Source of the DNA: Blepharisma japonicum
Lineage: Eukaryota; Ciliophora; Heterotrichea; Heterotrichida; Blepharismidae
Assembly: GCA_949751835.1 (NCBI GenBank)
Contig: CATKHK010000042.1
Location: 310,001-374,000, forward strand
Length of the DNA stretch: 64,000 bases
Direction: 5' to 3'
The position numbers and the translations under genes were made by a program. The notes beneath the pieces were generated by a model, which was not told where the DNA came from, made no database searches, and saw nothing but the letters and a program-made list of their open reading frames with translations. The stretch's first letter is position 1; each line of letters begins with the position of its first letter. Below are positions 27,480 to 44,883 of this stretch, piece after piece.

Positions 27480-29273
27480 ATGGATGAAAGAAGTCCGAAC
27501 TTTATCCCTTCTCAAGATATTTCTACAATAGACGCAGAATTATCAGATATTTCATTTAGCCAAAGTTTATCTGAAGACAGGCATGAAATTCTCATCATGA
27601 CAATCGATATAGGCGACGGCAGATCAGATGATTTAACGGTTCACGAAGGAGATAAACCTGAAATTTTAGCTGAGCAGTTTTGTCTTAAGCACAATTTAGG
27701 AGTTGACGTGGAAGAAGCCCTAAAAGAGCAAATTAAATATAATATAAGTCTTATCGCAGAAGAAGAGAAGCAAGCAGCTTCTCTATTATTTCAAAATCAA
27801 GGAAGTAGCAGGAAGAATAAAAAAAGCCCAGAAAATTCCCAACATAGAGGGCGGCAAAATTCTCAGTCTGAGTCACAAAACCACCAGCCCAAAATAAATG
27901 AGCATTCAAGAAGGCTTATTGAAGGAAAGTTCATTGGAAGTGTCTATGATAGATTGCATAAAATTGGTCAAAAGCAAAGTCCAAAAAAAGAAATAGAGAA
28001 GCCTAAGCCTAGAAGTGCATCACAAAAGCCTGTTAATAACAATGGAGATAAGCTTTATTACAAAGGAATGATGCTGAAAGAGAAAACGGAGAAAAAAATA
28101 CAAAAAATTAAGCAAACGCAATTAGATGAAGCTATGAAAGATTTGACATTTAAGCCAAAAACCAACTCTAAATCACCAATTTCTAGGAATATCTCTCATT
28201 TGTTGGAGAAAGGGAAAGAAAAAGAGCAAAATATCGAAAAGAAAAGAAGTCAAATATTAGAAGAAGAAATGAAAAAATGCACATTTGCACCAACTATAAA
28301 TCAAAAGAGTTCAGAAATGGCAAGATACAAATGCACATCCCCTGATAGGTTTGCACAGCTTTATGATAATGCAAGAATTAAAGATGAAAAAATGACAATA
28401 TTTTCCCATAATGTGTAAATTTTATATAGACTGAGATCAATATGCCCTTTTGCACCAGATACAAGTTTAACCAGCAAAGTCAATAAATCATTCAGCAAAA
28501 CTGAAAAAAGCAAAGATAAGCGCCCTCCTGAAATTTCGACTACACAAGAAAATACTGATCCAGTTACAGGGCAGCCTTTCTTTCAGCCACGCATAGGAAG
28601 AGCCCCAGCTAAAAGAGATGTAAAAGATATTGGAGAGCATTTATATTCTTATGCCAAAAAATCAAGCTCAGTTGAAATAAAATCACAATCCCCTAAGCAT
28701 TTGGGAAACATGACCTCTGAAAAAATTGTGGAAAGAATAAAATATTTGAGACTAAAAGAAATTTTTGAAATGATGGACCCTGATGAAAATGGCAATATTA
28801 ATAGTAGAAGAATAGAAAAATCAAGTTTACCTCCAACTATTAGAGCAATTTTATACCCTCTGATAGAAGAGCTAGCCAATATGAATGAAACTTTAAATTT
28901 TGATGAATTTTTGGAATCTGTAGAATTACTGCTAAAAACTCTGAGTCCAGGTGAAAAAAGCATTTTATTGATGTCAAATAAGCCGAAACCCCAACAGCAG
29001 CCTCAGTACACTTTTAAGCCTTCGATAAATACTTCATTTTCTCAAGAATCTACAGGAGAGCCTATCTATGTGAGAAATGCCAAAAAGCTTGAAATAACTC
29101 AATCCAAGCTTAAAAAAGAAAGATCAATAAAAGAAATAACAGAAATGACTCAATGCACATTTTTCCCTCAGACAAATAAACAAAAAATTCATAAAGACCA
29201 ATCAGAGTCCTCATTTTTAGATGCAAGTTTCCCTGTCACTTTTATTGGCATTAATAATTCTTATTGTTTATAA
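27480..29273 (+). CDS. CTFxP-repeat protein (ciliary-type), one 15-nt intron, 592 aa
   Basis: Not a named gene, but of a type common in ciliates and flagellates. N-terminal residues about 35-85 form a ubiquitin-like segment (LIMTIDIGDGRSDDLTVHEG ... AEQFCLKHNL). Then basic, helical linkers with recurring short motifs: LTFKPKTN, CTFAPTIN, CPFAPDTS, YTFKPSIN, CTFFPQTN, and the FQPRIGRAP...GEHLYSYAKK block seen in axonemal and basal-body proteins. Near 28770 MMDPDENGNINSRRIE looks like a degenerate EF-hand loop. The ATG frame meets TAA at 28416; removing the 15-nt intron at 28415-28429 takes out that stop and restores one frame to TAA 29271. Ciliary location is inference from the motif style. 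Confidence 0.75.
28415..28429 (+). other. 15-nt spliceosomal intron
   Basis: GTAAATTTTATATAG. GT...AG, A at position 10. It splits a codon after its second base; splicing gives GTA (Val) and removes the in-frame TAA at 28416. The frame is open for 400 codons before it and 280 after. Confidence 0.9.
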
Positions 29274-29280
29274 TATTTCT

Positions 29281-29817
29281 CTATAAATCTTTGTTAGTGT
29301 TAGTATTATTTGTAAATACGCTAGAATCTTGGCATTCTTGTGTGATATCAGGAGATGCGAACTCACTTAGAATATTGCTGTAAAATCTTGAGGAAAATGG
29401 AGACTCATCACTTTTATCACAGCCCATGCAATTTAGATGCAAGTGCTTTACATCGTAAAATGGAGGATTGTCGAAAAATATTCTATTTTTAAGGTCTTCT
29501 CGATTATGATTTTCTAATAAATCCACACAAATTCTTCGCATAGAGTTTATGAGCTCACATGTGACTTCTGAAGAATGAACATTTTTTATGTGTTCTATTG
29601 GAGTTATTAAGTAATGCCTTTTACAGTTTGGCTCAGGAGCATTGAAGGCAATGATTTCTTCTGATTCATAAAATTTTCGCTTGGGGATTGTGTTGTTAGC
29701 TATAGCACAATAATCGCAATTTTCAGCAGGAGCTCTGTCTAGAATATCTCCACCGACACTTAAGATAAAATAAATTATCGAAACCCAAACCAAAATTAAG
29801 ATGGTCTTGATTATCAT
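29281..29817 (-). CDS. HIT-family (HINT/aprataxin-like) protein with N-terminal membrane anchor, 178 aa
   Basis: HIT proteins hydrolyse nucleotide phosphoramidates or dinucleotide caps. Seen: a hydrophobic N-terminal segment (IIKTILILVWVSIIYFILS) acting as signal anchor or signal peptide; CDYCAIANNTIPKRKFYESE, the usual HIT entry; HYLITPIEHIKN; and VKHLHLNCMG, which corresponds to the HxHxHxx triad with Asn in place of the last triad His. The CDYC pair and a later CMGC pair could bind zinc (inference). The membrane segment is unusual for HINT. If the last His is truly missing, catalysis may be altered. Stop is TAG at 29281, 7 bp from the convergent neighbour's TAA. Confidence 0.8.
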   Translation of the reverse strand: MIIKTILILVWVSIIYFILSVGGDILDRAPAENCDYCAIANNTIPKRKFYESEEIIAFNAPEPNCKRHYLITPIEHIKNVHSSEVTCELINSMRRICVDLLENHNREDLKNRIFFDNPPFYDVKHLHLNCMGCDKSDESPFSSRFYSNILSEFASPDITQECQDSSVFTNNTNTNKDL

Positions 29818-30326
29818 TATTTATCTTAAAATATCAACAACTATGCTAACACTTGTAAATATAAATTTTTTAGAATTTTTCTGAAATTTATCTTGGAATT
29901 AATATGCAATAATTAAGTTTTGCGAAATCAAGATCTAATGAAAATTTCTAAATTAAAGCAAGAAATAAAATGAACTTATTTCACAAGCCTACTAAATTAA
30001 ATCTACTGATGATTTTTTCTGTTTTAAATATTAATTTTACATAAAAACGTTAGAATTCTCCATTATCCCAATATTCACTTTAAACCAATTTGAAATTTAC
30101 AATTCGAATATGGCTACACATCCTTTGGATGAGCAATTCATAGGCTATATGAAAGGTATGCAAAATATAGCTAGATATAAAACAAGAGTCAGAGCTTCTA
30201 TCAAAACACGAAAAAATTAGGGTTGATTTATGGGTATTTTTTAGTTAGTGTAAAAAGCTATCTCAAGCAACTTCAAACCCAATTTGGAAAAAAAATAGAA
30301 ATAACTATGCAAAAGTTTTAATATAT
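29818..30326. other. intergenic, AT-rich, containing a possible small gene
   Basis: 509 bp upstream of the HIT gene and of the coiled-coil gene at 30327. Apart from the small ORF at 30110-30220, listed separately, I see nothing I can support. Confidence 0.4.
30110..30220 (+). CDS. possible microprotein, 31-36 aa, with candidate 15-nt intron
   Basis: ATG 30110 to TAG 30218 codes MATHPLDEQFIGYMK and then a basic tail ending RASIKTRKN. Inside it, 30156-30170 (GTATGCAAAATATAG) fits the intron pattern of this genome exactly (15 nt, GT...TAG, A at position 10); its removal would leave a 31-residue peptide in frame. No homology can be claimed. It could equally be a chance ORF in a leader. Confidence 0.3.
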   Translation: MATHPLDEQFIGYMKGMQNIARYKTRVRASIKTRKN

Positions 30327-30968
30327 ATGATTAGAAAAGGACGATTTGAAGAGCCTTTTCATAAAATGCCACCAGATGGACCATTACCAAAACTACCAAA
30401 CTTGTATATAGCAGATATAAGTAATTTGAATTTCAAGAAAAAAACTAAAGCTGACTACAATTCTCCATCATTTGAAATGGATAGAGACAGCACAAATTCT
30501 ACACCTGAACCGTTCTCTATATTAAATCAGAATATATCTTCATCTGAATCTGGCCAAATTCAAACACTAAAGCTTGAGTTAGCAAAATCAAAGCAACGAG
30601 AGCAGCAACTTAGAGACGAACTACTTGTAATTATTATTCAGGCCTCTGCAAAAATTATAAATGAACAAGATGAATTATTAAATCGGCTGAAAAAGGAAAT
30701 TTCTGATCTAAAAAATCAAAAAAACGAAGATTTTCAGAGTCCGAAAAATTTCTTTAGTTTTCTAGAAGACTTTCAAAAGGAAACTAATCGACTTTCAGCA
30801 GAAACTGAGGCTATGTTTAGGGATAATATTAAATTAGAAACTCCCAGCAAAGATATTTTTGGAAATAGATCTCCATCATTAGATGAAATTGAAAACTCAT
30901 ATCGAGAAGACGATTTTTTGGAAGGAACCTTTTCTCCACCCGGATTTTATAATCCATTTAATAAATAA
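30327..30968 (+). CDS. coiled-coil hypothetical protein, 213 aa
   Basis: Not recognised. ATG 30327, TAA 30966. The N-terminus is basic and proline-containing (HKMPPDGPLPKLPNLYIA). A coiled coil runs over residues about 75-135 (heptads in LKLELAKSKQREQQLRDELL and EQDELLNRLKKEISDLK). The C-terminus is acidic and ends FSPPGFYNPFNK. SP sites at NRSPS and QSPKN. No TGA codon, no signal peptide and no membrane helix. Confidence 0.65.
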   Translation: MIRKGRFEEPFHKMPPDGPLPKLPNLYIADISNLNFKKKTKADYNSPSFEMDRDSTNSTPEPFSILNQNISSSESGQIQTLKLELAKSKQREQQLRDELLVIIIQASAKIINEQDELLNRLKKEISDLKNQKNEDFQSPKNFFSFLEDFQKETNRLSAETEAMFRDNIKLETPSKDIFGNRSPSLDEIENSYREDDFLEGTFSPPGFYNPFNK

Positions 30969-31085
30969 AATGGAATTGTCTTAGCTTACCTTTAAAAAAA
31001 TCAGAGATGCATAATTAATGATAAAATATGAATTAATTATTTATCACCTATGATATAAATAAATAACAAAAATACCTCAATAAGT

Positions 31086-31958
31086 ATGGGAAATTGTACT
31101 TACAAAAAGAAAAAAAATTCAATAAGCTGCATACAATCAGGCAAATATTCGTCTACAATAATAACTGCTGGACTCCCCGCAAATGAAAAAAATATTTCCG
31201 CATTCGATTTGGAAGCCTGCGCACCTCCCAATAACCAGGGACCAAACAGAAAGCTTCTCCTTGATTTTTTTGCAAGTTCGCGTCATCAAATGCCAAATAA
31301 GATAAAACTTCTTTTTGAAGCTATTTTTGCCTGTGAAGAGTTAAATGTGACAGAAATTGATCTAAGCTTTACTCCTTTGGATGTAAATAATGTTTACCAG
31401 CTAATAGCTATTCTAGAATATTTCCGGTGCTTGGAAGAAATCAATCTGAAGGATACTGGCTTAAGTTCAAAGGATTTGTATAGACTGCACAGTAAGCTTG
31501 AAAAACTAAAGCCATTGAAAAAAATCACGTTGAGCTATAATAGTCTAGAAGCAGAAGGAGGCTGCCAATTGGAAAGACTATTTCAGCATATAGTCAATGT
31601 AAAGTATATTGACCTGAGCAGAGCCAATCTTGGGGATATTGGCGCAATAAATTTGTGCCGTGGAATAGTCCACTTAAAAAATCTTGAAGAATTAATTTTA
31701 GATAATAACGAGATTGGGGAGCTTGGAATTATCGAAATTTTGAATACAATTAAAAAATCACAAACTCTTCGTCATTTGGGCTTAAACAACAATATTATCA
31801 CACCAAAAGCCGGAGCTATGCTATTAAGCATAATCAGCTCATTGTCGAACTTAAAAGTCCTTGGGCTGAAAAATACAGGATTATCATTTAAGTATTATTT
31901 TATGATAACTGGCAAGTTTAATTACTTGAAAGTAGAGTTTAGCAGTATAAAAGTGTAG
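31086..31958 (+). CDS. N-myristoylated leucine-rich-repeat (RNI-like) protein, 290 aa
   Basis: It begins MGNCTYKKKK: Gly2 with Asn3 and a following basic run is the classic N-myristoylation signal, with Cys4 able to be palmitoylated, so the protein should sit on the cytosolic face of a membrane. From residue about 85 come LRRs of the ribonuclease-inhibitor type, roughly 28 residues each (LEEINLKDTGLSSKDL, LKKITLSYNSLEAEG, VKYIDLSRANLGDIGA, LEELILDNNEIGELG, LRHLGLNNNIITPKAG, LKVLGLKNTGLS). Such domains bind protein partners; the partner is unknown. ATG 31086, TAG 31956. Confidence 0.8.
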   Translation: MGNCTYKKKKNSISCIQSGKYSSTIITAGLPANEKNISAFDLEACAPPNNQGPNRKLLLDFFASSRHQMPNKIKLLFEAIFACEELNVTEIDLSFTPLDVNNVYQLIAILEYFRCLEEINLKDTGLSSKDLYRLHSKLEKLKPLKKITLSYNSLEAEGGCQLERLFQHIVNVKYIDLSRANLGDIGAINLCRGIVHLKNLEELILDNNEIGELGIIEILNTIKKSQTLRHLGLNNNIITPKAGAMLLSIISSLSNLKVLGLKNTGLSFKYYFMITGKFNYLKVEFSSIKV

Positions 31959-32342
31959 ATACTCTGTATAGAGTTAAAATTTAATAGTTTTGCTTATATT
32001 ATGAGTAAAGGTGGTGAGCTGCCAACGTGATTGTTAATGCTAATAATTAATAGATGATATCTTTAGAATAGGATTTAAATATGAACTAAAGAAAGAATAA
32101 TTTTAAAATTGATGGAAAAGTGAAATGTAGCTCAAAATTTTATATAATATTTTACAGCAATTAGCTTGGTCGAAAATTTAAATAGAGGAAGCTTAAATTT
32201 AAATAAATTCAAATTTTAGTGTATAGTTAAACCTCATTCATTCATCACTCTATTAATTTAAATTCAAATGTTTCCGCATCCTAACTTATCTTTTCCATAA
32301 TAAAATCTGGAAATTTCTTTCTAGACAGTTTTAATAATTAAT
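31959..32342. other. intergenic, AT-rich
   Basis: 384 bp between two plus-strand genes. It must hold the 3' end of the LRR gene and the promoter of the coiled-coil gene. No ORF, RNA or repeat that I can support. Confidence 0.5.
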
Positions 32343-33842
32343 ATGTCTTATCCCAAAATACCTCCTAAACCTAACCAGGGAACTGCTAGTAAACTCTCTG
32401 AGCAAAAAAAGCAGCGGTTGCTCAAGCTCCAAGAGCGCGAAGACCTCAAAGGAATGCTTATTAACAAATTTAAGAAAAAATACGGCGACAAGCATCCTGG
32501 GTTCATTGATAGAGAAGTTGAAAATTTTATGAAAGCTGAAACATTAACAGAAGCAAACTTACAAAAATTAGATGAGCGAATTCGTAAAAAAGCAGAAGGC
32601 GATTATGAAACTCAATCTGTACATTCCCAAAAACCAATTCCAAGAGCGCAGCCATCAGAGCCGAGCGTTAAGTCAATTAAATCTCGCTCATCTCAGCCTT
32701 CTCAAAAAGGGCCTTCCAAAGCGCATTCTGATTCTTTATCTGAAGTTTCATCGTCAAAAGCGTCATCACTCTCATATGTGCCTGATGACGATGAAGATGA
32801 ATGGGCTGCTATTCTCGAGCATGACACACTAATGTATCGTGAAGAAGAAAGAGCTCGTCTCAAAAGAGAAATGGAAAATAAAATAAAATTAAAAAGAGAA
32901 CTTGATAGACAACTGAGTGAAAAAGAAAGAAAAAAGCTTTCTGAAGAGGAAGAAAATAAACTTTACGAAGAAGCACAAGAAAAAAACCTCAAAATGATGG
33001 CTGAAAGAGAAGAGGAACGAGAAAGAGAATACAGAGAAAAAATCATGCAAGAAAAAGCATTGAGAGATAAGCAACTTGCAGAAGAAAAAAGAAGAAAAAA
33101 ACTTGACCAAAAGCAGCAAGATAGCCTTGACCAAAAACTTGTACAAAGACTTAAAGAAGAGCTCATGCTTGAGCAGCAAGCAATGGAAGAACGCAGAAGA
33201 GAAGAAAGGGCTTACATGCAACGCATGATGAAAGAAAACGAAGAAAATAAGCGAAAACAGCTTGAGTACCAAGAACATGAGCGCTTAAACGACGTTCAAT
33301 CTATGGAAGATTATGCCCGAATGCTCGACCGCCAAGAACAAGACCGTCTTAATGAAATCAAAGCAAGAGAAGAACGCCAGCAGCAGCTGATGGCAAGAAT
33401 GGCTGATACAGTCCTAAAAGAGCAAGACCAAAGGAATCGAGAAGAAGATCTCATGCTTCTCAAACAAATTGAAGAAAAGGAAAATCTCGAAAGGCAAGAA
33501 GACGAACGAAGGCTTCAAAGAATCAGAGAGCAAAAAGAAGAAATTAGAAAATATCTCGATAGACAAGTCCAGGAAAAGCATGAAAGAAAAGCACAAGACA
33601 AAAGGTCGCATAATGAGCAAGCTGATATGTGGAAACGCGATGCTGAAGATTTTTTCAAGATGGAAGAAGATAAGAAAAAAAGAGAAAAAGAAATAAACTT
33701 ATTGCATGCTCAAATGTTGAAAGCTCAAATGGAAGAAAAAGAAGCGAAGCAGAGGAGAGCCAAAATGAATAGAAATGAACTTAAAATGAATAAAGACATT
33801 TTAAAGAGGATTAGAGATGAAAAACCTGAAGAAGTTTCCTAA
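32343..33842 (+). CDS. long charged coiled-coil (trichohyalin-like) protein, 499 aa
   Basis: MSYPKIPPKPNQG opens a folded-looking N-terminal stretch (residues 20-90, KKYGDKHPGFIDREVENFMK), then a low-complexity serine/lysine linker (about 100-150), an acidic patch (PDDDEDEWAAILEHDT), and from about 165 to the end an almost unbroken helix of E, K, R and Q. Proteins of this kind build ciliary or cortical filaments; CFAP-type or microtubule-inner proteins are possible, but I cannot name one. The codons here carry more C and G than those of the neighbours, and the coding is TGA-free. ATG 32343, TAA 33840. Confidence 0.75.
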   Translation: MSYPKIPPKPNQGTASKLSEQKKQRLLKLQEREDLKGMLINKFKKKYGDKHPGFIDREVENFMKAETLTEANLQKLDERIRKKAEGDYETQSVHSQKPIPRAQPSEPSVKSIKSRSSQPSQKGPSKAHSDSLSEVSSSKASSLSYVPDDDEDEWAAILEHDTLMYREEERARLKREMENKIKLKRELDRQLSEKERKKLSEEEENKLYEEAQEKNLKMMAEREEEREREYREKIMQEKALRDKQLAEEKRRKKLDQKQQDSLDQKLVQRLKEELMLEQQAMEERRREERAYMQRMMKENEENKRKQLEYQEHERLNDVQSMEDYARMLDRQEQDRLNEIKAREERQQQLMARMADTVLKEQDQRNREEDLMLLKQIEEKENLERQEDERRLQRIREQKEEIRKYLDRQVQEKHERKAQDKRSHNEQADMWKRDAEDFFKMEEDKKKREKEINLLHAQMLKAQMEEKEAKQRRAKMNRNELKMNKDILKRIRDEKPEEVS

Positions 33843-33852
33843 GGATAAGATT

Positions 33853-34125
33853 TTATTTAAAATATGATGAATAAATGATAAGTGATAAAAGTCCTGAGGA
33901 TTTTGATACAAAAGAAACGGAGTAAAGATAAATAATAACCTTTCATATACTCATACGCAGCCTTGGGCCAGATAGTAAAAAGAAATAACTTGTTCCTCCA
34001 GCTATAGCTGATGAAAAATAAATCCTGCTTAACCTTCTGCTCTCATATGTGCTATCTTTGATTCTTTGATGAGCTTCATTCAAATCCTGTGAGTATTTTT
34101 CTAATTTTTCCCTGTTTATTATCAT
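33853..34125 (-). CDS. small protein with one hydrophobic segment, about 90 aa
   Basis: ATG 34125 opens MIINREKLEKYSQDLNEAHQ, a charged helix, then YFSSAIAGGTSYFFLL, which could span a membrane. Reading the TGA at 33943 as Trp, the frame runs to TAA at 33853; stopping at the TGA would give 60 aa. The stop lies 10 bp from the convergent coiled-coil gene stop. The start is just 8 bp downstream of the stop of the gene at 34134-34667 on the same strand, so either the promoter is inside that gene or the two share a transcript. Function unknown. Confidence 0.45.
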
Positions 34126-34133
34126 TTTAATTA

Positions 34134-34667
34134 TTAAAAGACTCCAACTTCGTTAAAATCAAGGCTTAAAGCTTTGGCAGGGCTTTTCAAGTCTTCATCA
34201 CCGATCCACCTTTGTAGCATATCTTTAGTAATTTGAAAATTCTTTGATAGATTATCAAGTCTCGAGTTTCTTGCTGATTTCATAGGAGTTATTGCATTAT
34301 TTCCACTTGATGACCTTGAATGGCTTTGTGCAGATTTTTTCCCTAGAGGAGTTCTGGGTGGTTTCTGATTGGAAATTTTTTTAGCTGGGGATATAGATCC
34401 TGAAGGACACTCAGTTAATAAAATACATCTGTCCTCTTCAAATTTTGAATAATCTCTATTCCTAACTGAGCAAGGAGATTTAGAGAGCTTGGGAGATGGG
34501 GTTCTGTTCACTGCAGCATTAGTCATGGCTCGTTTTTCAGTTCTCTGAGATGCTTGCTTTTCCTGAGAGAAAGGCTTGCTATCTTTAACTTTGAAGTTTA
34601 ATTTAACATAAACTCGTCTAGCTTTATAAAAATTACGATTTGGCGAAGAGGCTGAATTCTGATTCAT
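34134..34667 (-). CDS. basic Ser/Pro-rich hypothetical protein, 177 aa
   Basis: Not recognised. ATG 34667, TAA 34134. Mostly disordered, with many SP/TP sites that suit CDK or MAPK phosphorylation (NRTPSPKLSKSP, RTPLGKKS, ITPMKS) and a short C-terminal helix (LSKNFQITKDMLQRWIG). Composition resembles microtubule- or DNA-binding regulatory proteins, but no domain is seen. Confidence 0.6.
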   Translation of the reverse strand: MNQNSASSPNRNFYKARRVYVKLNFKVKDSKPFSQEKQASQRTEKRAMTNAAVNRTPSPKLSKSPCSVRNRDYSKFEEDRCILLTECPSGSISPAKKISNQKPPRTPLGKKSAQSHSRSSSGNNAITPMKSARNSRLDNLSKNFQITKDMLQRWIGDEDLKSPAKALSLDFNEVGVF

Positions 34668-34768
34668 TATTTTAAGGATAATTATTTAAATTCAATGGAT
34701 TTTATAGTAATAGATTTTGGATTTATTAGTAATATGCATGTGAGCCATTTCTGAAAACAGATAAAAAC

Positions 34769-35743
34769 CTATGCATAGTTTCATACCCGAATTAAGCTAC
34801 TCCAAGGATTTTCGACTTCTTCATAATGTCTCTGGCCAGAGCTAGTCACAATTCTGTTTCCAAAAACTTGAACAGAGTTTACAGCATCAAAATGCCCCAT
34901 AAAATAATTTAATAAACTGCCATCTGCAGTAGAATATTTATAGATGCTTCCATCTCCATTTCCAACTCCAAGCTCTAAGCCATTTTCATTTAGATCGAAC
35001 AAAATCCTTTGATTGGACTGATGCTGCCTATAAAAATTAAATATATTGACTGGATATGAAATATTACGCAAATCTCATGCAGTAATGCTATTTTGCTTTC
35101 TGCAGCCAACATATAAATAATTCGCTCTAAATTCGCATTGAATGATTCCTCCTTGATGCCCTTCTAGCATTCCAATAGTTTTGCATGAATCTTTTGAGAA
35201 TAAATAAACAGCTTTTGAGTAATTCCCTATAGCCAGCAAGCCTTCTTTTCCACCTATAGCAGAGATAATGCATTTTGGCCTTATTCGGAGCTCATCTACT
35301 GAAAGCGGAAAGCTATAGCATAATGAAGTTTCCAAATCAAAATATTTGACAGTATTTCCAAGAGCTGTATATATTCCTCAATCCCCTTCAAGAATCAAGG
35401 AAAGTGGAGCTCTTACCTCACAGAGATGGTTTTGGACTGTATACTTCATAAGTATTTTGTTATTAATTGCAGAGTGTAGCAAAATAGGATGATCTTTTAT
35501 GAGAGAAAAATACTTTGAGGTATCAGAATATCAATAATAGTCATAAATTATTTCTTTTTCCTTATAAGATATCTCATTAGTCATCTTCAATTCACTTTTC
35601 TCCTCAGGGATCTTAAAAGTCTTGATTTCTCCATTCACACTAGTTATCACTTTATCTCCATCATACGATAGTTTTGCTGGAGTAAAAAACTCTTCCTTGG
35701 CACATCCAACCTCACAGCAGAGGTTTGGCATAAGTTCACTCAT
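34769..35743 (-). CDS. WRAP53: WRAP53/TCAB1-like WD40 protein, 324 aa
   Basis: In animals, TCAB1 binds the CAB box of telomerase RNA and scaRNAs and brings them to Cajal bodies. The frame runs from ATG 35743 to TAG 34769 with TGA read as Trp four times, including the W of SITAWDLR at 35075. Diagnostic stretches of the family: EGHQGGIIQCEFRANYLYVG, ITAWDLRNISYPV, NQRILFDLNENGLELGVGNG and VTSSGQRHYEEVEN, matching the family's NQRIxFDL and ATASGQR signatures. WD repeats fill the chain. The long N-terminal extension of vertebrate WRAP53 is absent. Whether the ciliate protein acts on telomerase or on scaRNA-like guides is inference. The start is 26 bp below the stop of the DENN gene on the same strand. 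Confidence 0.85.
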
Positions 35744-35769
35744 TCTTTTTATTTCATTAATTTACAAAT

Positions 35770-38598
35770 TTAATTAATTTCGTTTATCAACTCATTATAC
35801 TTTTGAATTGCTTCGCTGACCTTTTCCAAGCTCCAAAGTGTTTGTGTTTCTCCATCTACCATTTCTTCCAGCTTGTTTGGGCCATCGTCGGTATTTAATG
35901 CAAAAAACTTTTTATTTTCTGTGTCTCTTTCGTAGGGTAAAATAAATTCAAATGTTAAGCCTAAGTTATTGAAGTGCCAAACCAAATTTCAAAATATCAT
36001 AGGATTGTAAACTCTCATTGCTTCTATATTTAAATGAAATTTATTATCTTTTTCATTTAATATGTCAGTAACAAGAGCTTTTAGTGTTTGAGGAGAGACA
36101 AAGAGGGTGTCTTCTTTTGATGAAGTTTTATTTTGAGAAATATGACCTACTTCTAGCCCAACTCTAATCCTCAACTGTGGGAAATTTCCGTTTTGGCAGT
36201 TGTTGCATAGACTTTGGTAGTCATATGGCTGCCTTTTCCAGCCATGCTTAATTTCTTCTAGGCTTAGCTGTTTTCCGCATTTTTTGCATAGCTCTTTGAC
36301 CAAAAAGCACACCTCTTGCTTTGCAAAAATATGAATGTCTCCTGGACGAGTGAAAATGCGCTTTTTGCGATTGACTAAATTTGTAGAGTCTGTTAATACT
36401 GAATTTGTCACTAATAAGCTGTCCCTCGTCTTTCTCATTTCAATGTCTTGAGGCTTTAATGATAATTTTGATATGACTCGCTGGACTAAATGTACTGTCC
36501 CTGCATCTACCATAACTTGCAAAGTATTCATGACTGAAAAAATAGGTAAAGCAAGACTAGGATTAACATTTAAGCATGCCTCAAATAAAAGCTTATAAAG
36601 AGATGTCAAAGAACCACTAAACGAAGAATTTATCAGCTCAAGGACTTGCAAAGCTTCTTTGAGACGGAGAGGTTGCTCTTCTTCATGCTGATATCATAAG
36701 CAAGCTGCCCACATTTCAACCCAGCAGCTTAGGATGCATTCAATATCAGTTTTACAAGCTGGAGGTGCAGATGGCTGAGGAGGAGAAGGAATATCAATAT
36801 TATCTGAATACTTTGGAGGCCGAGTAAGAGGCAGTCCATATTCTTGGAAAACAGTTATATCAAAATCTGGAAATTGGTTATAGGTATGCTCTTTTTTACT
36901 TGCATAAACTTGAGAAATCAATGGAACTTGGTATTTTGAATGCAGTTCTTGAGACTGGTCACTTATAAATGGGGCAGGGACTTTATTGTATTTGAGTTTA
37001 GATCGGTTATTTTTGGCTATTATATGTTCATCAAATAGCAGCCCTTCACAGTGTTCTTCTATTGTTCTAGGTCTTAATCTTGTAGCACAAAAATTTGCAA
37101 AAGTTTGTGATTTTATCATCTCGCCTAGGAAAAATCTAGCATTTTCAGGAACACTTGCTAAAAATCCTTTTCTGTCAAAAAAACTTGAATTATCATTTTC
37201 GTTCCAATCATAGTTCAAAAACTTTTTATAGGATAAAAAAATTGACACAAAAAACTGAAAGAAAGCTTCCCTGATATTTTTAGTTGCAAACTCATCAAGT
37301 CGAGGTACGTTTAATTTTGGAGGTTTAGACTTCCCAGCCCCAGCCTTAGACAAAACACTTATTACTCTTTTCGTTAACTTCTTTCCATAATGTTCAGGCA
37401 AATTTGGTAGAGTTGCCTTCTTTGTATGATTTTGTGTATAAAAAGGACATTCGATTTTATTATTATCCAAATCCACAATAACAGCAGTTTCACTGCATCT
37501 GTGATATATGGCTTCTTTGCTCCTTATATTTACTCCATAAATATAGTTCACAGGGGAATACAGATAATCTAGTAGCTGTTCAGGTAATAAGGGTACATAT
37601 ACTAAGCTTCAATGGAACGGAAAAATTAGTGCGAGAAGCGCATAAGTGCAAGTGCAGAGCTTGTCTTCGTTATTTGATATGAAAACTATAGGCTGTTCGG
37701 TAGCTATACATCTGAATACAAATAGCACATTATCAAGATCTAAGCAGTAAAATAGCATTCCTAAATTGATATCTAATAAAGGAAACCTATTAACTGCTGG
37801 CAGTGAAAGCCGAAATTGCTGAGCCTCAATTTGATAAAGGATTTCGACATGACCTCTTGAAGGCAGTGGAACTTGCAGAATAAAATGAGATATGTAGCAC
37901 TCCAGCGGTAAATCAAGCACTGCAGAGCTCATTTTATATAATGTGTTTAATATCTTTTTAAAAGTTTCAAAAAATGGATGCCTTGATACAATAACTAAAC
38001 ACTTAGGAACTAAAGCACCAGTTGGACAAAAGAATGAAAATGAAGGTATCAAACACGCTACCTCTTCTTCATTAGGAATTTCTCCTTCAAGTTCATCTAA
38101 GTTTCCTAAGGTAAAGCTTCGCTTTTTGAAAGGATTTTCATTTTCTTCAATCTCTACCATTTCAAAAGATGGGAATTGCGTTGTATCAGGTCTACCTGTT
38201 TTAGATCTAGTATCAGCTCTTTTAAAAACTCCTCTCGAGGGAGAACCCTCAGAAGGCTCTTCATGAAAATAAGCTTCATAGACTTTTAGACATGTGCAAT
38301 AAAGTAAATGGCCTTGCTCGTCCGTAAGGACTAAATTGAATAGAGAACTTGGTACTTCAGTTGTCCCTTTAACAATTTCTGCTCCTCATGGAAAACAAAA
38401 CATCGGAAGCTGGGCTGGAATTACTGCTCCTTCTCTCTGAATAGGAGGAAATTGTGAAAGAATGATAGGGGATAAAGCTTCATTGTTCACGACATGATTT
38501 TTTATGTTTTCTAAACTCATCCCTATAGTCACAAAATAGTCTGCAAGTGTGCTGATGTCTTTGCAATATTCTTGGATTTCAGCTTTTAAAGCTTCCAT
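35770..38598 (-). CDS. DENN-domain protein (Rab GEF family), 942 aa
   Basis: DENN proteins exchange GDP for GTP on Rab GTPases in membrane traffic. A single frame from ATG 38598 to TAA 35770 has TGA read as Trp at 38386, 37609, 36694 and 35989. Upstream DENN (residues about 60-200: LFNLVLTDEQGHLLYCTC, ACLIPSFSFFCPTGALVPK), core DENN (about 240-350: LLDINLGMLFYCLD, then IVFISNNEDKL, FPFHWSLVYVPLLPEQLLDY with W from TGA) and downstream DENN (about 450-520) are present. The C-terminal third has helical segments and a CxxC pair (LCKKCGKQL ... LCNNC) that may bind zinc. The DENND4 group is a possible match; the subfamily is uncertain. Confidence 0.9.
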
Positions 38599-38696
38599 TT
38601 ATATTAATTATTCCTTCAATTCTGAAAATTAATAGAAGATTAGCTTTTTTGTTACAGATTATAATTAAACACAATTTTTAGAATTTTTTTAATATA

Positions 38697-39923
38697 TTAA
38701 TGTTCAGCAAATGCAGATGAGCCTTTGACAATCCAAAACTCATCTGTTGTTTTGCTTTTTCCAGTTTCCCACTGTTGCCAGCACAAGTGAGTAGCATTAA
38801 AAGCAGTAAAAATACTATATGTTAAATTGTCATCCCAAGCAGCCAGCCAATTCGGAGCATTCTTAGTAGCGACATCAGAATTGCTTGAATCAGATCCTGG
38901 GCCTCCAGTTGTGACATAAATTGTTGCAAGAGGATCTATGTAAGTATTTCCTGATCCTCCACTCTTCATTTTGTTTCCTTTGTAAACAGGAGTTGTCCTC
39001 TCGTAATTGTGCACATGCCCATTGACATACAAGTCAACATTATAATCATAAAACAATGTTTCTAAGTTGTCTTGCAGTATTTGGGCTTCAGATCCACATG
39101 CTTTTGCCTTTGCAGTCGACGAGCAGTACAAAGGTCTGTGGGCATATACAACCAGCCATGGGTAGGCTTCTTTATCAGCTTGGGTTCTATTAAGGACACT
39201 TTGTATATAGCCCATCATTGGGCCTATTTCTGAGGTTCTTTCTATGATGGTCTCTGTATCGATTCCTAGAAATCTTACATAACCGCTGGTCCAGGTGTAG
39301 TAGAAATTATTGTTCGGCATCCTAAACCTTGCTTGGTAATTGACATAATTATCATCTCCTTCGTGGTTTCCTACAGCTACCATGTAAGGCACAGAGCTGG
39401 CAACCGTTTGGATCGAGTTCATGTAATTATCTCCCCAGGTAGCATGGTCGGTGCTGAGGTCGTAGGCAATGTCCCCCATATGGATAACAGCGTTGATTTT
39501 CATCTTAACAACCCAATTTTCTATCTCCTCCCATGATGCAGCGCCTTCTACCCCAATATCTAAATCTGCGAACATGACGTAGCTGGATGGTCCAGAACTT
39601 GGAGGCACTGTAAGCGTAAAAGTTTGACTGAAATTGGTCAAAACACAGCCAACCTGATAGGTATAGACTGTTCCTGGGTACAATGTTGCGTTAACTGTAT
39701 GGATTATTCAAGAATTCGTCCCATTGGTGAAGCTAATTGATGAGCCGTAGTAATACTTCCAAAAAGAAGGGTTTAGGCCAATACGAACCGCTGACGTCGG
39801 TGTAGATTCGCGAGTACTCCATGTAAATTGAATAAGGCTAGGACTGGCGCCGACAGCGACATGGACTTGCTCAGGGATGTCTGTGGCGAAGATTTGCCTT
39901 ATCATTAACAGCAGCAATATCAT
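38697..39923 (-). CDS. secreted purple acid phosphatase, 408 aa
   Basis: Binuclear-metal phosphatase of the metallophosphoesterase fold, secreted or lysosomal. ATG 39923 begins a signal peptide (MILLLLMIRQIFA). An N-terminal fibronectin-like domain (QVHVAVGASPSLIQFTWST) is followed by the metal motifs FADLDIG, MGDIAYD, VGNHEGDDNY, VVYAHRPLYC and NGHVHNYER, in the family order. The in-frame TGA at 39708 is Trp (SWIIHTVNATLYPGTVY). In the first motif, DLDIG replaces the commoner GDxG. Length is usual for plant and protist members. TAA stop at 38697. Confidence 0.93.
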
Positions 39924-40351
39924 TTTTATATACAATGTGGTATGGCATCTCGATTAGAGATATGAATGATTACATGTATTTTCAATCAATTAACACTGGC
40001 ATGGGTCTAATGAAAAAATCAAATCGAAAGGGTTTTAGACTTTTGGTGGTCTTAGCTCCATATTTAATTTTATAAGCCTTCCATTTGCAAGTGACTTTGA
40101 AATTCAAGGAAAATAAGAGACAAAACAATTTTATTATTATAAATTTTATCGAGTGAAAAGATGATAGAAAATAATTTTTGGGTAATAAATAAACGTTAAT
40201 TTTTTTTAGAAAAATTAACTGCATGCAATCATTGAACTCTCTCATATATATTTATTAAATTCAATAAGAAATGTCAGTTCCAAGAGAGCCTACAAATACG
40301 GCAACAAAGCTTATGTAACTTTTATTAAGGATCTTTCAAAACTACTATAGC
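39924..40351. other. intergenic, AT-rich
   Basis: 428 bp between divergent genes. It must hold the promoters of the phosphatase and the CFAP97-like gene. One open frame on the minus strand (39982-40245) has no support and is listed as rejected. Confidence 0.45.
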
Positions 40352-40924
40352 ATGGAAAAGAATATTCGTAATGTCAAACCCCGGATTGAAGCACATAACG
40401 ATCTTCAATATTCTCACATAACAGATGGTCAAACTTCTAAAAAATCACAAAACCGCAAAAATCGTATGCGAGAAATCGAATTCGAGAACAGCAATTTGCT
40501 AGACAAACTACAAACAATTTTCCATCATCAAAACTTCGATAACAAACCAGTTCATTTAAAATCATTAAACTATAATCGAAGAAAAAGAGAAGTCAGCAGA
40601 ATTAATAGCGAAAATAAAGCTTTTTATAAGGTGTTGAGAGATGTAAAATCTGCTTATAAAAGAGAAGATTATGCAAAGTGGAATGACAATAATAATAGAT
40701 ACAAAAGAAATATATCAACTTCATCTAGAAGAAAAGATCCTATGAGACCTATTATAACTCCTGCTATTGCAACAGCTTATCCACAGCTGGTAAGTAAAAA
40801 AGAGGCAAGAAAGCATTGAAAGCCAAGATCAGGAAGTGCATTTGATAGAAATATAAGAAGTTTTGAATCCGGAGAGTTGGCAAGAAGTCTATTAAATTAT
40901 ACTCCTGTAGGTAGCGAAAACTAA
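40352..40924 (+). CDS. CFAP97/hemingway-like ciliary protein, 190 aa
   Basis: The middle of the protein (residues about 65-120) has the CFAP97 pattern: HLKSLNYNRRKREVSRINSE then NKAFYKVLRDV and a Y...W...NRY stretch, matching SLNxxxRxxxxxxIxxENxxxLxRL. CFAP97 proteins belong to motile cilia and sperm flagella. The chain is small and basic, like the CFAP97D type. The frame passes a TGA at 40817 (Trp) and ends at TAA 40922. The next gene starts 44 bp downstream. Assignment from the motif only. Confidence 0.6.
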
Positions 40925-40968
40925 AATCTTTACATTAATTTTTACTCTAATTTTTCCTTATAATTTAA

Positions 40969-41910
40969 ATGTCAGCAACCATTTTATCTCTAAGTGATGT
41001 CGAGCTCTTAGATCGTCAAATTGCTCAGCTAATGGATGGAAAATACATTTCAGAGGCTGAAGTAAAAGCTCTTTGTGAGAAAGCGCGTGAAATTCTTTCT
41101 GAAGAAAATAATGTCCAGCCTGTAAAAGTCCCTGTTACCATATGCGGGGATATTCATGGTCAATTTCATGATTTAATAGAACTCTTCAGAATAGGTGGTT
41201 ATCTTCCAGATACAAATTATTTATTTACAGGCGACTATGTAGACAGAGGCTACTATTCAGTTGAATGTGTAAGTTTATTAGTTTCCTTAAAAGTCCGCTA
41301 CAGAGATCGCATCACCATTACAAGAGGGAATCATGAATCGCGCCAGATTACCCAAGTTTATGGCTTTTATGATGAATGTATGAGAAAATATGGCTCAGCT
41401 AATGTTTGGAAATATTTTACCGATTTATTTGATTATTTGCCTTTAACTGCGCTTGTGGAAAACCAAATATTTTGTTTACATGGAGGATTGTCACCTTCAC
41501 TAGACACTTTAGATCATGTAAGACAGCTGGATAGAATCCAGGAAGTCCCACATGAAGGAGCTATGTGTGACTTATTATGGTCTGATCCTGACGAAAAGCC
41601 TGGCTGGGGAATAAGCCCAAGAGGTGCTGGATTTACTTTTGGGCAGGATAACTCTGAACAATTTAACCATACAAATAACTTAAAGCTTATTGCAAGAGCA
41701 CATCAGCTGGTCATGGAAGGATACTCTTGGTGCCATGACAGAAACGTGGTCACTATCTTTTCAGCTCCAAATTACTGCTATAGATGTGGTAATCAGGCAG
41801 GAATTATTGAAGTTGATGAAAATTTAAATCAAAATTTCATACAGTTCGATCCAGCACCAAGAAGAGGAGAGCCAAATATTGCGCAGAGAACGCCAGATTA
41901 TTTCCTCTAA
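40969..41910 (+). CDS. protein phosphatase 2A catalytic subunit, 313 aa
   Basis: Ser/Thr phosphatase, core of PP2A holoenzymes. All metal and active-site motifs are present: GDIHGQ (D61, H63), [50 protein letters not shown] and [12 protein letters not shown]. The C-terminus is TPDYFL, the methylated and phosphorylated tail that governs B-subunit choice, with Leu at the end. Length equals the eukaryotic standard. There are no in-frame TGAs, and tryptophans are TGG. A 15-bp GT...TAG string at 41267-41281 is coding, not an intron (see rejected list). Confidence 0.97.
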
Positions 41911-42009
41911 ACGTAATAAACCAGTTAACTAATCTCGCCTTAATCCGTAGTCTATGAGTAATGAAAATTCTTTATTGATCAAATATATCCGATAATGCCT
42001 ATCATATAA

Positions 42010-42870
42010 ATGGAAGTGATAGATAGCAAAATTGCTCAGCTTCTAAATGGCGATCCAATTACTGAGACTGAAATTAAAGGACTTTGTGATAAATGCAAAG
42101 AAATTCTTATAGGGGAAAGTAATATAGCTTCCGTTCGAACTCCAGTTATTGTGTGTGGAGATTTTCATGGACAACTTAACGATCTAATAGAAATTTTTAA
42201 CATGAAAGGGCATATTCCAAGTAAAAGTTATTTATTTATAGGAGATTATGTGGATAGAGGAAGAAATTCAGTTGAATTGATATCTCTATTAATAGTTTTA
42301 AAAATCCGATACCCAAACAATATCGTGATGACTAGAGGAAATCATGAATCACGCTCAATATCTAGAATTTATGGCTTTTATGATGAATGTTTGAGAAAAT
42401 ATCGCTCACCTTCTGTTTGAAAGATGTTTACAAATTTATTTGATTATTTTCCATTAGCCGGAATCATAGATGGCAAAATCTTTTGTATTCATGGAGGACT
42501 TTCTCCAACTTGTGAAACATTAGAAGATATCAATAATTTAAATAGAATTCAGGAAATACCAGATGAAGGAGCAATTTGTGATTTATTATGGTCAGGTCCT
42601 GATGATAGAAGCGGATGAGGAATGAGCAGTAGAAGAGGTGTTTGCAGTTTTGGACAAGATATCTCTCAGCAGTTTAATCACAGAAATAATTTAGAGTTTA
42701 TTGTGAGAGCTCATGAAGTTGTGATGGAAGGATATAAGTGGTCTCATGAAGGCAGCGTTCTGACTATTTTTTCTGCTTCAAATTACAATGGATTGTTCGG
42801 TAACCAAGGCGGAATCGTTGAAATTGATGAGAGCATAAATCACAACTGCATTCGATTTGGCCCGCTATAA
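42010..42870 (+). CDS. divergent PP2A-type phosphatase catalytic subunit, 286 aa
   Basis: Tandem paralogue 99 bp downstream of PP2A. The catalytic motifs [47 protein letters not shown] and [12 protein letters not shown] are intact, so it should be active. It differs in two ways: the chain stops at [10 protein letters not shown], so the TPDYFL regulatory tail is absent, and the substrate-groove loop reads [12 protein letters not shown] instead of [11 protein letters not shown]. Two TGAs (42418, 42619) are Trp at positions that are Trp in PP2A (ANVWKYFT and PGWGISPR). The missing tail implies no LCMT1/PME1 control and different partners (inference). TAA 42868. Confidence 0.92.
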
Positions 42871-43119
42871 ATAAATTGTTACACTTTATTTTAAACAACA
42901 TATACTTTCTAGGGGTCTCTTATAAAACCTATGCATTTCTTTGGGCTATTTTTTTCAATACTTTTTGGCATAGTCTTAATAATATGATAAATTTCTTTTC
43001 TTTAAAACTGGGCTGAAATTCTGGATTGTGCTAGTATCTATGCACAATAAAGAGAATCTTTTAAAGCCAGGATGTAATTTATAATTGAAATGAATAAAGA
43101 CTATTTCATTAATTAATAA

Positions 43120-43974
43120 ATGGAAGGTCTATATTGTTCAGCATGCCCAGATCAGAAAACTGCGGAATGAGTTTGCACTTGCACAGAATCTGCCAATTAT
43201 CTCTGCGAAACCCATTCTTCTCTACATAAGATTAAACACTATGGCAATAAAAGCAAAAATTTATATCTGAAAAAGCTTTGGCAGCCTATCAAAGATGAAA
43301 CTAAATTAAAAGTCTTGAAAAAATTCACAAAAAAAATAAATAAGCTGAAAGAAGAAAAGAAAAATATCATAAAAACAACCCTCAAAAGAATAAAAGCCTT
43401 ACAAGATTTTCTTAAAGAAACATTGATAAAAGCAGATAAAGAGAGGAAGTTTTACAAAGATATGATAAATACAATTTATTCTTTGAAAGAAGCACCAGTT
43501 AAAGCTAAATGTGAGATTTATGAGCTATTAGCCCTTCCCTTCGATAAAATAAAACTAAAAAAGGAAATTGATAAAATCAAGCCTCCTGAAGATAGCCCAG
43601 TAACAAATCTCAAAACATTATTTTCTGAATGAAAAAAGCAAGAAAGTATTAATCAAAAATCAAATGAAAGATGTCCAAATTATCATGACTGCCAAAATTT
43701 GCTATATTGCAACTATGCCCATCCAGCGAAAACTGTAAGTCTTATTTAGTGTGAATTCTATCCAAATTGCAAATTTGGTGATGCATGCAAATATAGACAC
43801 ATAAAAGTACTAACTAATTAGACAAATTGCAAATATGGTAAAAATTGCCGAAACGTAGGATGTCAATATTTGCATGTTAAATTGATAGAAAAATCAGGAA
43901 ATTCAAAATCTAATCCGTTACAATTTGGAAGAGTGAATCGAAATCATTATATAACAACAAAACCTCTAGTTTAA
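43120..43974 (+). CDS. B-box-like zinc finger, coiled coil and three Nab2-type CCCH fingers, 274 aa (copy 1)
   Basis: N-terminal residues 1-45 hold CSACPDQKTAEWVCTCTE, then YLCETHSSLHKIKH, a B-box-like Cys/His finger (W from TGA). A helical coiled coil follows (about 60-140), then three fingers of C-x5-C-x4/5-C-x3-H: CPNYHDCQNLLYCNYAH, CEFYPNCKFGDACKYRH and CKYGKNCRNVGCQYLH. This spacing is that of Nab2/ZC3H14 fingers, which bind poly(A) RNA. Two 15-nt introns fall exactly between fingers 1-2 and 2-3; without their removal TAG codons end the frame. TGA at 43630 is Trp (FSEWKKQESI). An RNA-binding role is inference. TAA 43972. Confidence 0.85.
43735..43749 (+). other. 15-nt intron 1 of copy 1
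   Basis: GTAAGTCTTATTTAG, phase 0, between CCCH fingers 1 and 2. A at position 10. The final TAG is in frame, so retention ends translation. Confidence 0.92.
43807..43821 (+). other. 15-nt intron 2 of copy 1
   Basis: GTACTAACTAATTAG, phase 0, between CCCH fingers 2 and 3. It contains CTAAC, a canonical branch-point core, with A at position 10. In-frame TAG if retained. Confidence 0.92.
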
Positions 43975-44037
43975 ACCAGAAATTTAGCTTAACTCATATT
44001 TTCTCAATAATTAATAATTGCTAAAAATGTTATAAAT

Positions 44038-44883
44038 ATGGAAGACTTTTATCATTGTTCAATTTGTGCAGAAAAAAATCAAGCCGATTGGATGTGCACA
44101 TGTCCAAATGGAAGACGCTATTATTGTGAAAAGCATTCATATATGCATAATATGGAGCATCCAAGAGCAAGATCAGGCTTACAAAGAGCGTGACTTCCAA
44201 TCAAAGAAGAAAATAGACAAAAAATAACTAAAAAACTATCAAAAAAAATCCATCAACTCAATAAATCAAAGCAAGTACTTATAGAAACCACGTCAAAAAG
44301 AATACAAAGTTTAGAAGCTTTTCTTCAAGAAAGTATAGCTAACATTGTTAAAGAGAATAACTATTACAAAAGCATGATCACTAAAATTAACTCACTTACT
44401 CACTCCCCACTGAAGACTGATAACACTCTGATTGAAATTTTATCTAGGCCAATCGATAAGTCTCGCTTGAAAGCAGAAATTGATAAATTTTCATTATCAG
44501 CACCTAAAGATACCTCACTTGTAAATTTGCGTGCCTTATTTTCAGAATGGAAGAAGCAAGAAAGCATCGAACAACAAACCAAAAAGAGATGTCCCAATTA
44601 TCATGATTGCCCAGATTTTCTGCATTGTAGCTACTCGCATCCTACCAGAAATGTATGACAAACTTAGTGTGAATTTTATCCTAATTGCAAAAATGGGGAC
44701 AACTGCCCTTATAGACATGTAAAAGTAAGACTTACTTAGACTTTATGTAAGTTTGGAAGAAATTGTACGAATAAAGGATGCGGCTACATTCATCCAACTT
44801 TAAATAATCATTCAGAGTCATTGAAAATTATTAGATCAACAGATAATAAATCTTATCTGTCTAAATTTAATAGATTCAGATAA
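44038..44883 (+). CDS. B-box-like zinc finger, coiled coil and three Nab2-type CCCH fingers, 271 aa (copy 2)
   Basis: Tandem paralogue starting 63 bp after copy 1, with the same plan: CSICAEKNQADWMCTCPN and YYCEKHSYMHNMEH (B-box-like), coiled coil, the conserved LFSEWKKQESIEQ linker, then CPNYHDCPDFLHCSYSH, CEFYPNCKNGDNCPYRH and CKFGRNCTNKGCGYIH. Introns of 15 nt lie at the same two positions, both phase 0. TGA near 44189 is Trp. The copies differ at many residues in the coiled coil but little in the fingers, so the duplication is not recent and the fingers are under constraint (inference). TAA 44881. Confidence 0.85.
44653..44667 (+). other. 15-nt intron 1 of copy 2
   Basis: GTATGACAAACTTAG, phase 0, between fingers 1 and 2, at the place matching copy 1. 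A at position 10; in-frame TAG if retained. Confidence 0.92.
44725..44739 (+). other. 15-nt intron 2 of copy 2
   Basis: GTAAGACTTACTTAG, phase 0, between fingers 2 and 3, at the place matching copy 1. A at position 10; in-frame TAG if retained. Confidence 0.92.

Follow-up and report, generated by a model that had tools for sequence, protein, structure and literature searches.

Five 15-nucleotide introns of Blepharisma japonicum, and in-frame stops that most probably accompany their splice signals

A stretch of 64,000 nucleotides (nt) of Blepharisma japonicum DNA (contig CATKHK010000042.1, positions 310,001–374,000 of the forward strand; here the window) carries five 15-nt introns in three genes, designated A, B and C (Table 1). 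The five are most probably ordinary spliceosomal introns of the 15-nt class known from heterotrich ciliates, and the in-frame stops found in them mostly a by-product of the splice signals. The assembly containing the window consists of 45.2 Mb in 224 contigs and has approximately 34% GC. Across 136 open frames with 250 codons or more, TGA is present at 4.2 and TGG at 7.4 per thousand codons, and at the same tryptophan (Trp) of the paralogs A and B (EWKKQ) one gene has TGA and the other TGG; TGA is therefore read as Trp, and phases in the window were assigned by translation on this basis. The genetic code of Stentor is not known to read TGA as Trp.

Each of the five 15-mers occurs once in the window, on the + strand, where the first-pass annotation had placed it, and the letters were confirmed. 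All five start with G1 T2 A3, have A at position 10 (A10) and end in T13 A14 G15; T13 is the T of the terminal TAG and no independent feature. Translation also bears out the annotated stops, i.e. four phase-0 introns with an in-frame TAG and a fifth with TAA. In this fifth intron, at 28415, the internal codons in phase 2 are TAA ATT TTA TAT, and the TAA derives from the GTAA of the 5′ end.

Genes A and B are tandem duplicates whose proteins, after removal of both introns, share 47% identity (127/273), and both intron positions coincide. In each paralogous pair (43735/44653 and 43807/44725) 5 of the 15 letters differ, yet GTA, A10 and TTAG are kept. Because four of the five introns form these two pairs, the five represent no more than three independent cases. 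That removal restores a protein is evident from paralogy for genes A and B, and from the reading frame only for 28415, where coding flanks and a CxFxPxT-like internal repeat just downstream, recognized by eye, are also present. The letters of GTAAGACTTACTTAG recur on contig C33, where they immediately follow the ATG that starts a ribosomal L38e gene (Pfam E-value = 2.6e-27).

Table 1. Introns, genes and domain matches (aa, amino acids; C32 and C54, other contigs of the genome).
Feature	Position	Strand	Description
Intron GTAAATTTTATATAG	28415..28429	+	15 nt, phase 2, TAA in frame on retention; in gene C; coding flanks, joined frame
Intron GTAAGTCTTATTTAG	43735..43749	+	15 nt, phase 0, in-frame TAG; gene A intron 1
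Intron GTACTAACTAATTAG	43807..43821	+	15 nt, phase 0, in-frame TAG; gene A intron 2
Intron GTATGACAAACTTAG	44653..44667	+	15 nt, phase 0, in-frame TAG; gene B intron 1, site matches 43735
Intron GTAAGACTTACTTAG	44725..44739	+	15 nt, phase 0, in-frame TAG; gene B intron 2, site matches 43807
Gene C	27480..29273	+	592 aa spliced; no domain above cut-off
Gene A	43120..43974	+	274 aa after removal of both introns; CCCH-like zinc fingers, Pfam scores below cut-off
Gene B	44038..44883	+	271 aa after removal of both introns; tandem paralog of gene A, likewise with CCCH-like zinc fingers scoring below the Pfam cut-off
Sixth intron GTATTTTTTAGTTAG	30234..30248	+	15 nt, phase 0, in-frame TAG; in DUF4485 gene
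Stopless intron, protein kinase			junction HFD[I]KPDN; 97.5 bits spliced vs 84.6 retained
Stopless intron, Derlin-like protein			31.8 bits spliced vs 26.9 retained
Stopless intron, mitochondrial carrier			junction TPMD[V]IKQR; 127.8 bits spliced vs 115.9 retained
Stopless intron, Kelch protein			phase 2, T at position 4; 107.4 bits spliced vs 99.1 retained
UPF1 zinc-binding domain match	C32:96935-97393		E-value = 6.2e-60
UPF1 zinc-binding domain match	C54:277779-278231		E-value = 1.3e-37

The bare motif GTANNNNNNANNTAG is found 8 times in the window against 6.5 ± 2.5 expected, and 37 of 100 shuffles reach 8. With T at position 9 (T9) added, 5 are found against 1.6 expected, a number reached by 3 of 100 shuffles. 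Since the bare motif is at chance level, the case for introns depends on coding context and homology. A survey of 344 kb covered GT..AG pairs of 9 to 30 nt that are flanked by coding sequence and contain an in-frame stop. It yielded 24 stop-bearing GTA..TAG segments of 15 nt and 0 to 4 of every other length. A10 is present in 23 of the 24 and T9 in 22. Position 10 played no part in their selection save for 3 phase-1 cases, whose required stop can fall on positions 9–11; without these, A10 is present in 20 of 21. A coding-frame search for 16-nt introns recovered too few for a comparison of phases.

Counts over the whole genome show the same length and the same adenine. GTAAG-N3-TA-NN-TAG, at 15 nt, gives 611 matches, with 47 for the 14-nt analogue and 93 for the 16-nt analogue; the reversed patterns, used as controls, give 174, 141 and 176 for 15, 14 and 16 nt. 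When position 10 is varied, A is found 881 times (GTAAG-N4-A-NN-TAG) and other bases 430 times, compared with 529 and 989 for the reversed controls. A10 is thus enriched approximately fourfold (881 versus the 215 expected if A makes up a third of chance matches). The CAG-ended form, GTAAG-N3-TA-NN-CAG, has 194 matches against 63 for its reversed control, part of them plain coding sequence, and coding flanks are found for 6 CAG-ended candidates of 15 nt, against 0 to 3 for seven other lengths tried. CAG-ended 15-nt introns seem to exist, and in phase 0 they would be stopless unless another stop is present. The candidates with coding flanks are too few to decide whether TAG rather than CAG, i.e. 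T13, goes with phase. In the window, GTAATTATTATTCAG (30627–30641, +) is either a CAG-ended stopless phase-0 15-nt intron or ordinary coding sequence (VIIIQ).

Removal of the 15-nt introns would be carried out by the major spliceosome, with A10, five bases ahead of the 3′ end and usually preceded by T, as the likely branch adenosine. A branch at A10 would form a loop of ten bases with a tail of five. The frequency of A10 found here supports the annotated branch point, as does its position in Stentor coeruleus, where introns are likewise 15 nt with GU-AG ends. Passages of the Stentor report give 8173 of 8806 introns as 15 nt, and in 8005 the branch A occupies position 10 (PMC9505925). This geometry, with the strain that it puts on the spliceosome, is thus already published for Stentor, and avoidance of a steric clash is already proposed there. 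In the same passages the bases next to the branch A show no strong consensus, in contrast to the strong T9 preference here (22/24). Three U2 genes were found in the B. japonicum genome, and all three contain the exact canonical branch-site stretch around GUAGUA. By the pairing rules, T9 would face a U of U2 and an A at position 9 would be favored; U2 pairing would therefore not account for the T9 preference.

Whether a retained 15-nt intron stops translation depends on its phase. A phase-0 intron has its terminal TAG in frame, and a phase-2 intron reads TAA or TAG at positions 2–4 if position 4 is a purine. The splice signals, TAG at the 3′ site or GTAA/GTAG at the 5′ site, thus double as stops, so that a retained intron would usually terminate translation; in phase 1 both signals fall out of frame, and introns without any stop occur.

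The stop tally comprises 47 TAG-ended 15-nt introns, a small sample picked by motif and blind to stops. The first source was 47 places of GTA-N5-TA-NN-TAG in the 344 kb, 29 of which passed a flank test. Three window introns that failed this test were put back because paralogs fix their phase, and each of two tandem-duplicate pairs was entered as a single case, giving 30 introns. The second source was 20 places of GTAAG-N4-A-NN-TAG on contig C1 (of the 881 in the genome); 17 of these were taken as introns on the strength of reading frame and flank score, in some cases by eye. An apparent tandem duplicate, with copies ~2.2 kb apart, is found at C1:56314, 56786, 58516 and 58988 (place L010 and its neighbors), with two letter-identical 15-nt introns per copy.

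Phases 0, 1 and 2 are represented by 24, 11 and 12 introns, of which 24, 4 and 10 are stop-bearing, 38 of 47 altogether. With shuffled phases the mean is 37.3 (P = 0.45; n = 47, a small sample with a phase-0 excess). Even phases would give 33.3; the observed 38 exceeds this value because phase 0 is over-represented (24/47; chi-square test against even phases, P = 0.035), and phase 1 is under-represented (11/47, P = 0.096). An excess of phase-0 introns is common in eukaryotes. Within phases, stops are found in 4 of 11 phase-1 introns, compared with 8 of 36 when the introns of the other phases are read in phase 1 (Fisher P = 0.29), and in 10 of 12 phase-2 introns, compared with 31 of 35 when the rest are read in phase 2. 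Under a requirement that four in five phase-1 introns be stop-bearing, the probability of 4 or fewer in 11 would be 0.002. Weaker selection for stops is possible. The first-pass annotation had expected both A10 and an enrichment of stops in the genome-wide set of 15-nt introns. A10 is enriched; in the 47 introns tallied, stops are not in excess over shuffled phases.

The remaining 9 of the 47 introns are stopless. Nine stopless candidates were domain-scanned in spliced form, seven of them also in retained form. Four, in genes for a protein kinase, a Derlin-like protein, a mitochondrial carrier and a Kelch protein, have the junction inside a domain and gain domain score when spliced (Table 1); retention would add five residues and no stop. 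The four are the places C1:174167, C1:156797, L042 and L047. Because of these four domain-supported cases, the annotated rule that an unspliced intron of this kind always stops translation holds for the five window introns but not for the class. In the spliced scans, the candidate at C1:134462 has no Pfam match, and that at C1:171091 has a CFAP97 match only, away from the junction.

In Paramecium and other ciliates, passages of one study (PMC5014332) describe in-frame stops above random background and a depletion of introns whose length is a multiple of three (3n introns), most of which would likewise meet a stop on retention. A corresponding account for Blepharisma would have selection maintain a stop in every 3n intron, allowing nonsense-mediated decay (NMD) to detect retention. 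The stops in all five window introns, the 38 of 47 against 33.3 under even phases, and the over- and under-representation of phases 0 and 1 are in its favor. The genome also contains two matches to the UPF1 zinc-binding domain, one match to Mago, and one weak match to UPF3 in which an internal TGA is read as Trp. These matches allow NMD in this organism but do not imply action on the messages discussed here. (The two UPF1 matches are of unequal strength, indicating two UPF1-like genes.) Such selection is nevertheless unlikely, since in this small sample stops do not rise above shuffled phases, the phase-1 introns show no enrichment and fall well short of four in five, and stopless 3n introns, some with domain support, are not avoided (9/47). 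The annotated proposal that the stops let surveillance catch retention is a reasonable one and is thus kept in part: the stops in the five and the phase-0 excess agree with it, whereas the shuffled phases and the stopless introns do not. In B. japonicum, unlike Paramecium, 3n is the main length class and, in the small sample tallied, stops are about as frequent as shuffled phases predict.

The intron interpretation itself has two competitors. The shared letters could reflect descent from one duplicated gene plus chance, with no splicing constraint, and it is true that four of the five introns are two paralogous pairs and that the bare motif is at chance level in the window. Paralogous introns that differ at a third of their letters while retaining GTA, A10 and TTAG, together with A10 in 23 of 24 sampled introns, make this extremely improbable, and the genome-wide counts with their length peak already contradict it. 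Alternatively the 15-mers could be translated or mark breaks in the genes, with readthrough of TAG or TAA. This is also very improbable, although the 15-mers were judged from DNA, because GT-AG pairs peak at 15 nt with a fixed A10, domain scores go up once 15-mers are removed, and introns of 15 and 16 nt are described for Blepharisma in passages of a published report (PMC9942806).

Several points weigh against the reading favored here, of ordinary introns with stops that come mostly with the splice signals. The introns are known from DNA sequence alone, and in gene C a domain scan of the spliced protein found no domain spanning the 28415 junction. The tally is conditioned on TAG, so that CAG-ended introns are excluded, and its phases derive from the flanking sequence, in a few cases by eye. 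Rows were dropped: 15 of the 47 motif places in the 344 kb, for unclear flanks, and 3 of the 20 places on C1 (L034, which lacks coding flanks; L035, where the opposite strand is coding; L048, unclear). The phase-0 excess and the low phase 1 are also expected under selection for stops. Among the 6 stopless phase-1 introns whose retained form was scanned, 3 (L040, L045 and C1:19168) received no domain confirmation; L045 and C1:19168 have near-equal scores spliced and retained, and the sole match of L040 is below cut-off.

A sixth 15-nt intron of the window, at 30234, is absent from the list of five in the first-pass annotation. It is situated in a gene with a DUF4485 domain, which scores 93.0 bits with the intron spliced and 82.7 bits with the intron codons kept (X at the stop). 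The same gene apparently requires a 19-nt intron, GTATGCAAAATATAGCTAG (window 30156–30174, +), outside the published 15/16-nt rule. This 19-nt sequence holds a 15-mer with A10 and TAG, excision of which would leave a stop. The DUF4485 score of 93.0 bits with the 19-nt intron compares with 87.2 bits for a GG..AG 16-nt reading.

The observation in the first-pass annotation is accurate, and the intron class is already published. Passages on heterotrich introns give about 95% as 15 bp and the remainder as 16 (PMC11441545). For Blepharisma stoltei, main-text passages of the genome report (41 Mbp, 66% AT; PMC9942806) describe UGA as Trp, introns mainly of 15 and 16 bp and a gene-dense genome, in all of which, as in AT content, B. 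japonicum is alike and no difference was seen; these passages contain no phase or stop tally. Among the titles listed in literature searches none concerns the phases of heterotrich introns or the stops within them, and the Blepharisma supplement may contain such a tally.

Introns of 15 nt are the shortest known class and thus a natural test of the minimal size of a spliceosome substrate. Lengths of 3n, depleted in other ciliates, are near-exclusive in heterotrichs, and the tally suggests that stops accompany the splice signals. As a rather doubtful extension, GTAA and TAG could form a built-in surveillance code effective in two of three phases, by which nearly all heterotrich introns could settle on 15 nt without selection for a stop in each; phase-1 introns would be unguarded, and their retention, adding five residues, could give protein variants. 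The stopless introns in the kinase, Derlin-like, carrier and Kelch genes are places where retention is measurable. If a fuller count agrees with the present one, the NMD account based on Paramecium would not be transferable unchanged to heterotrichs.

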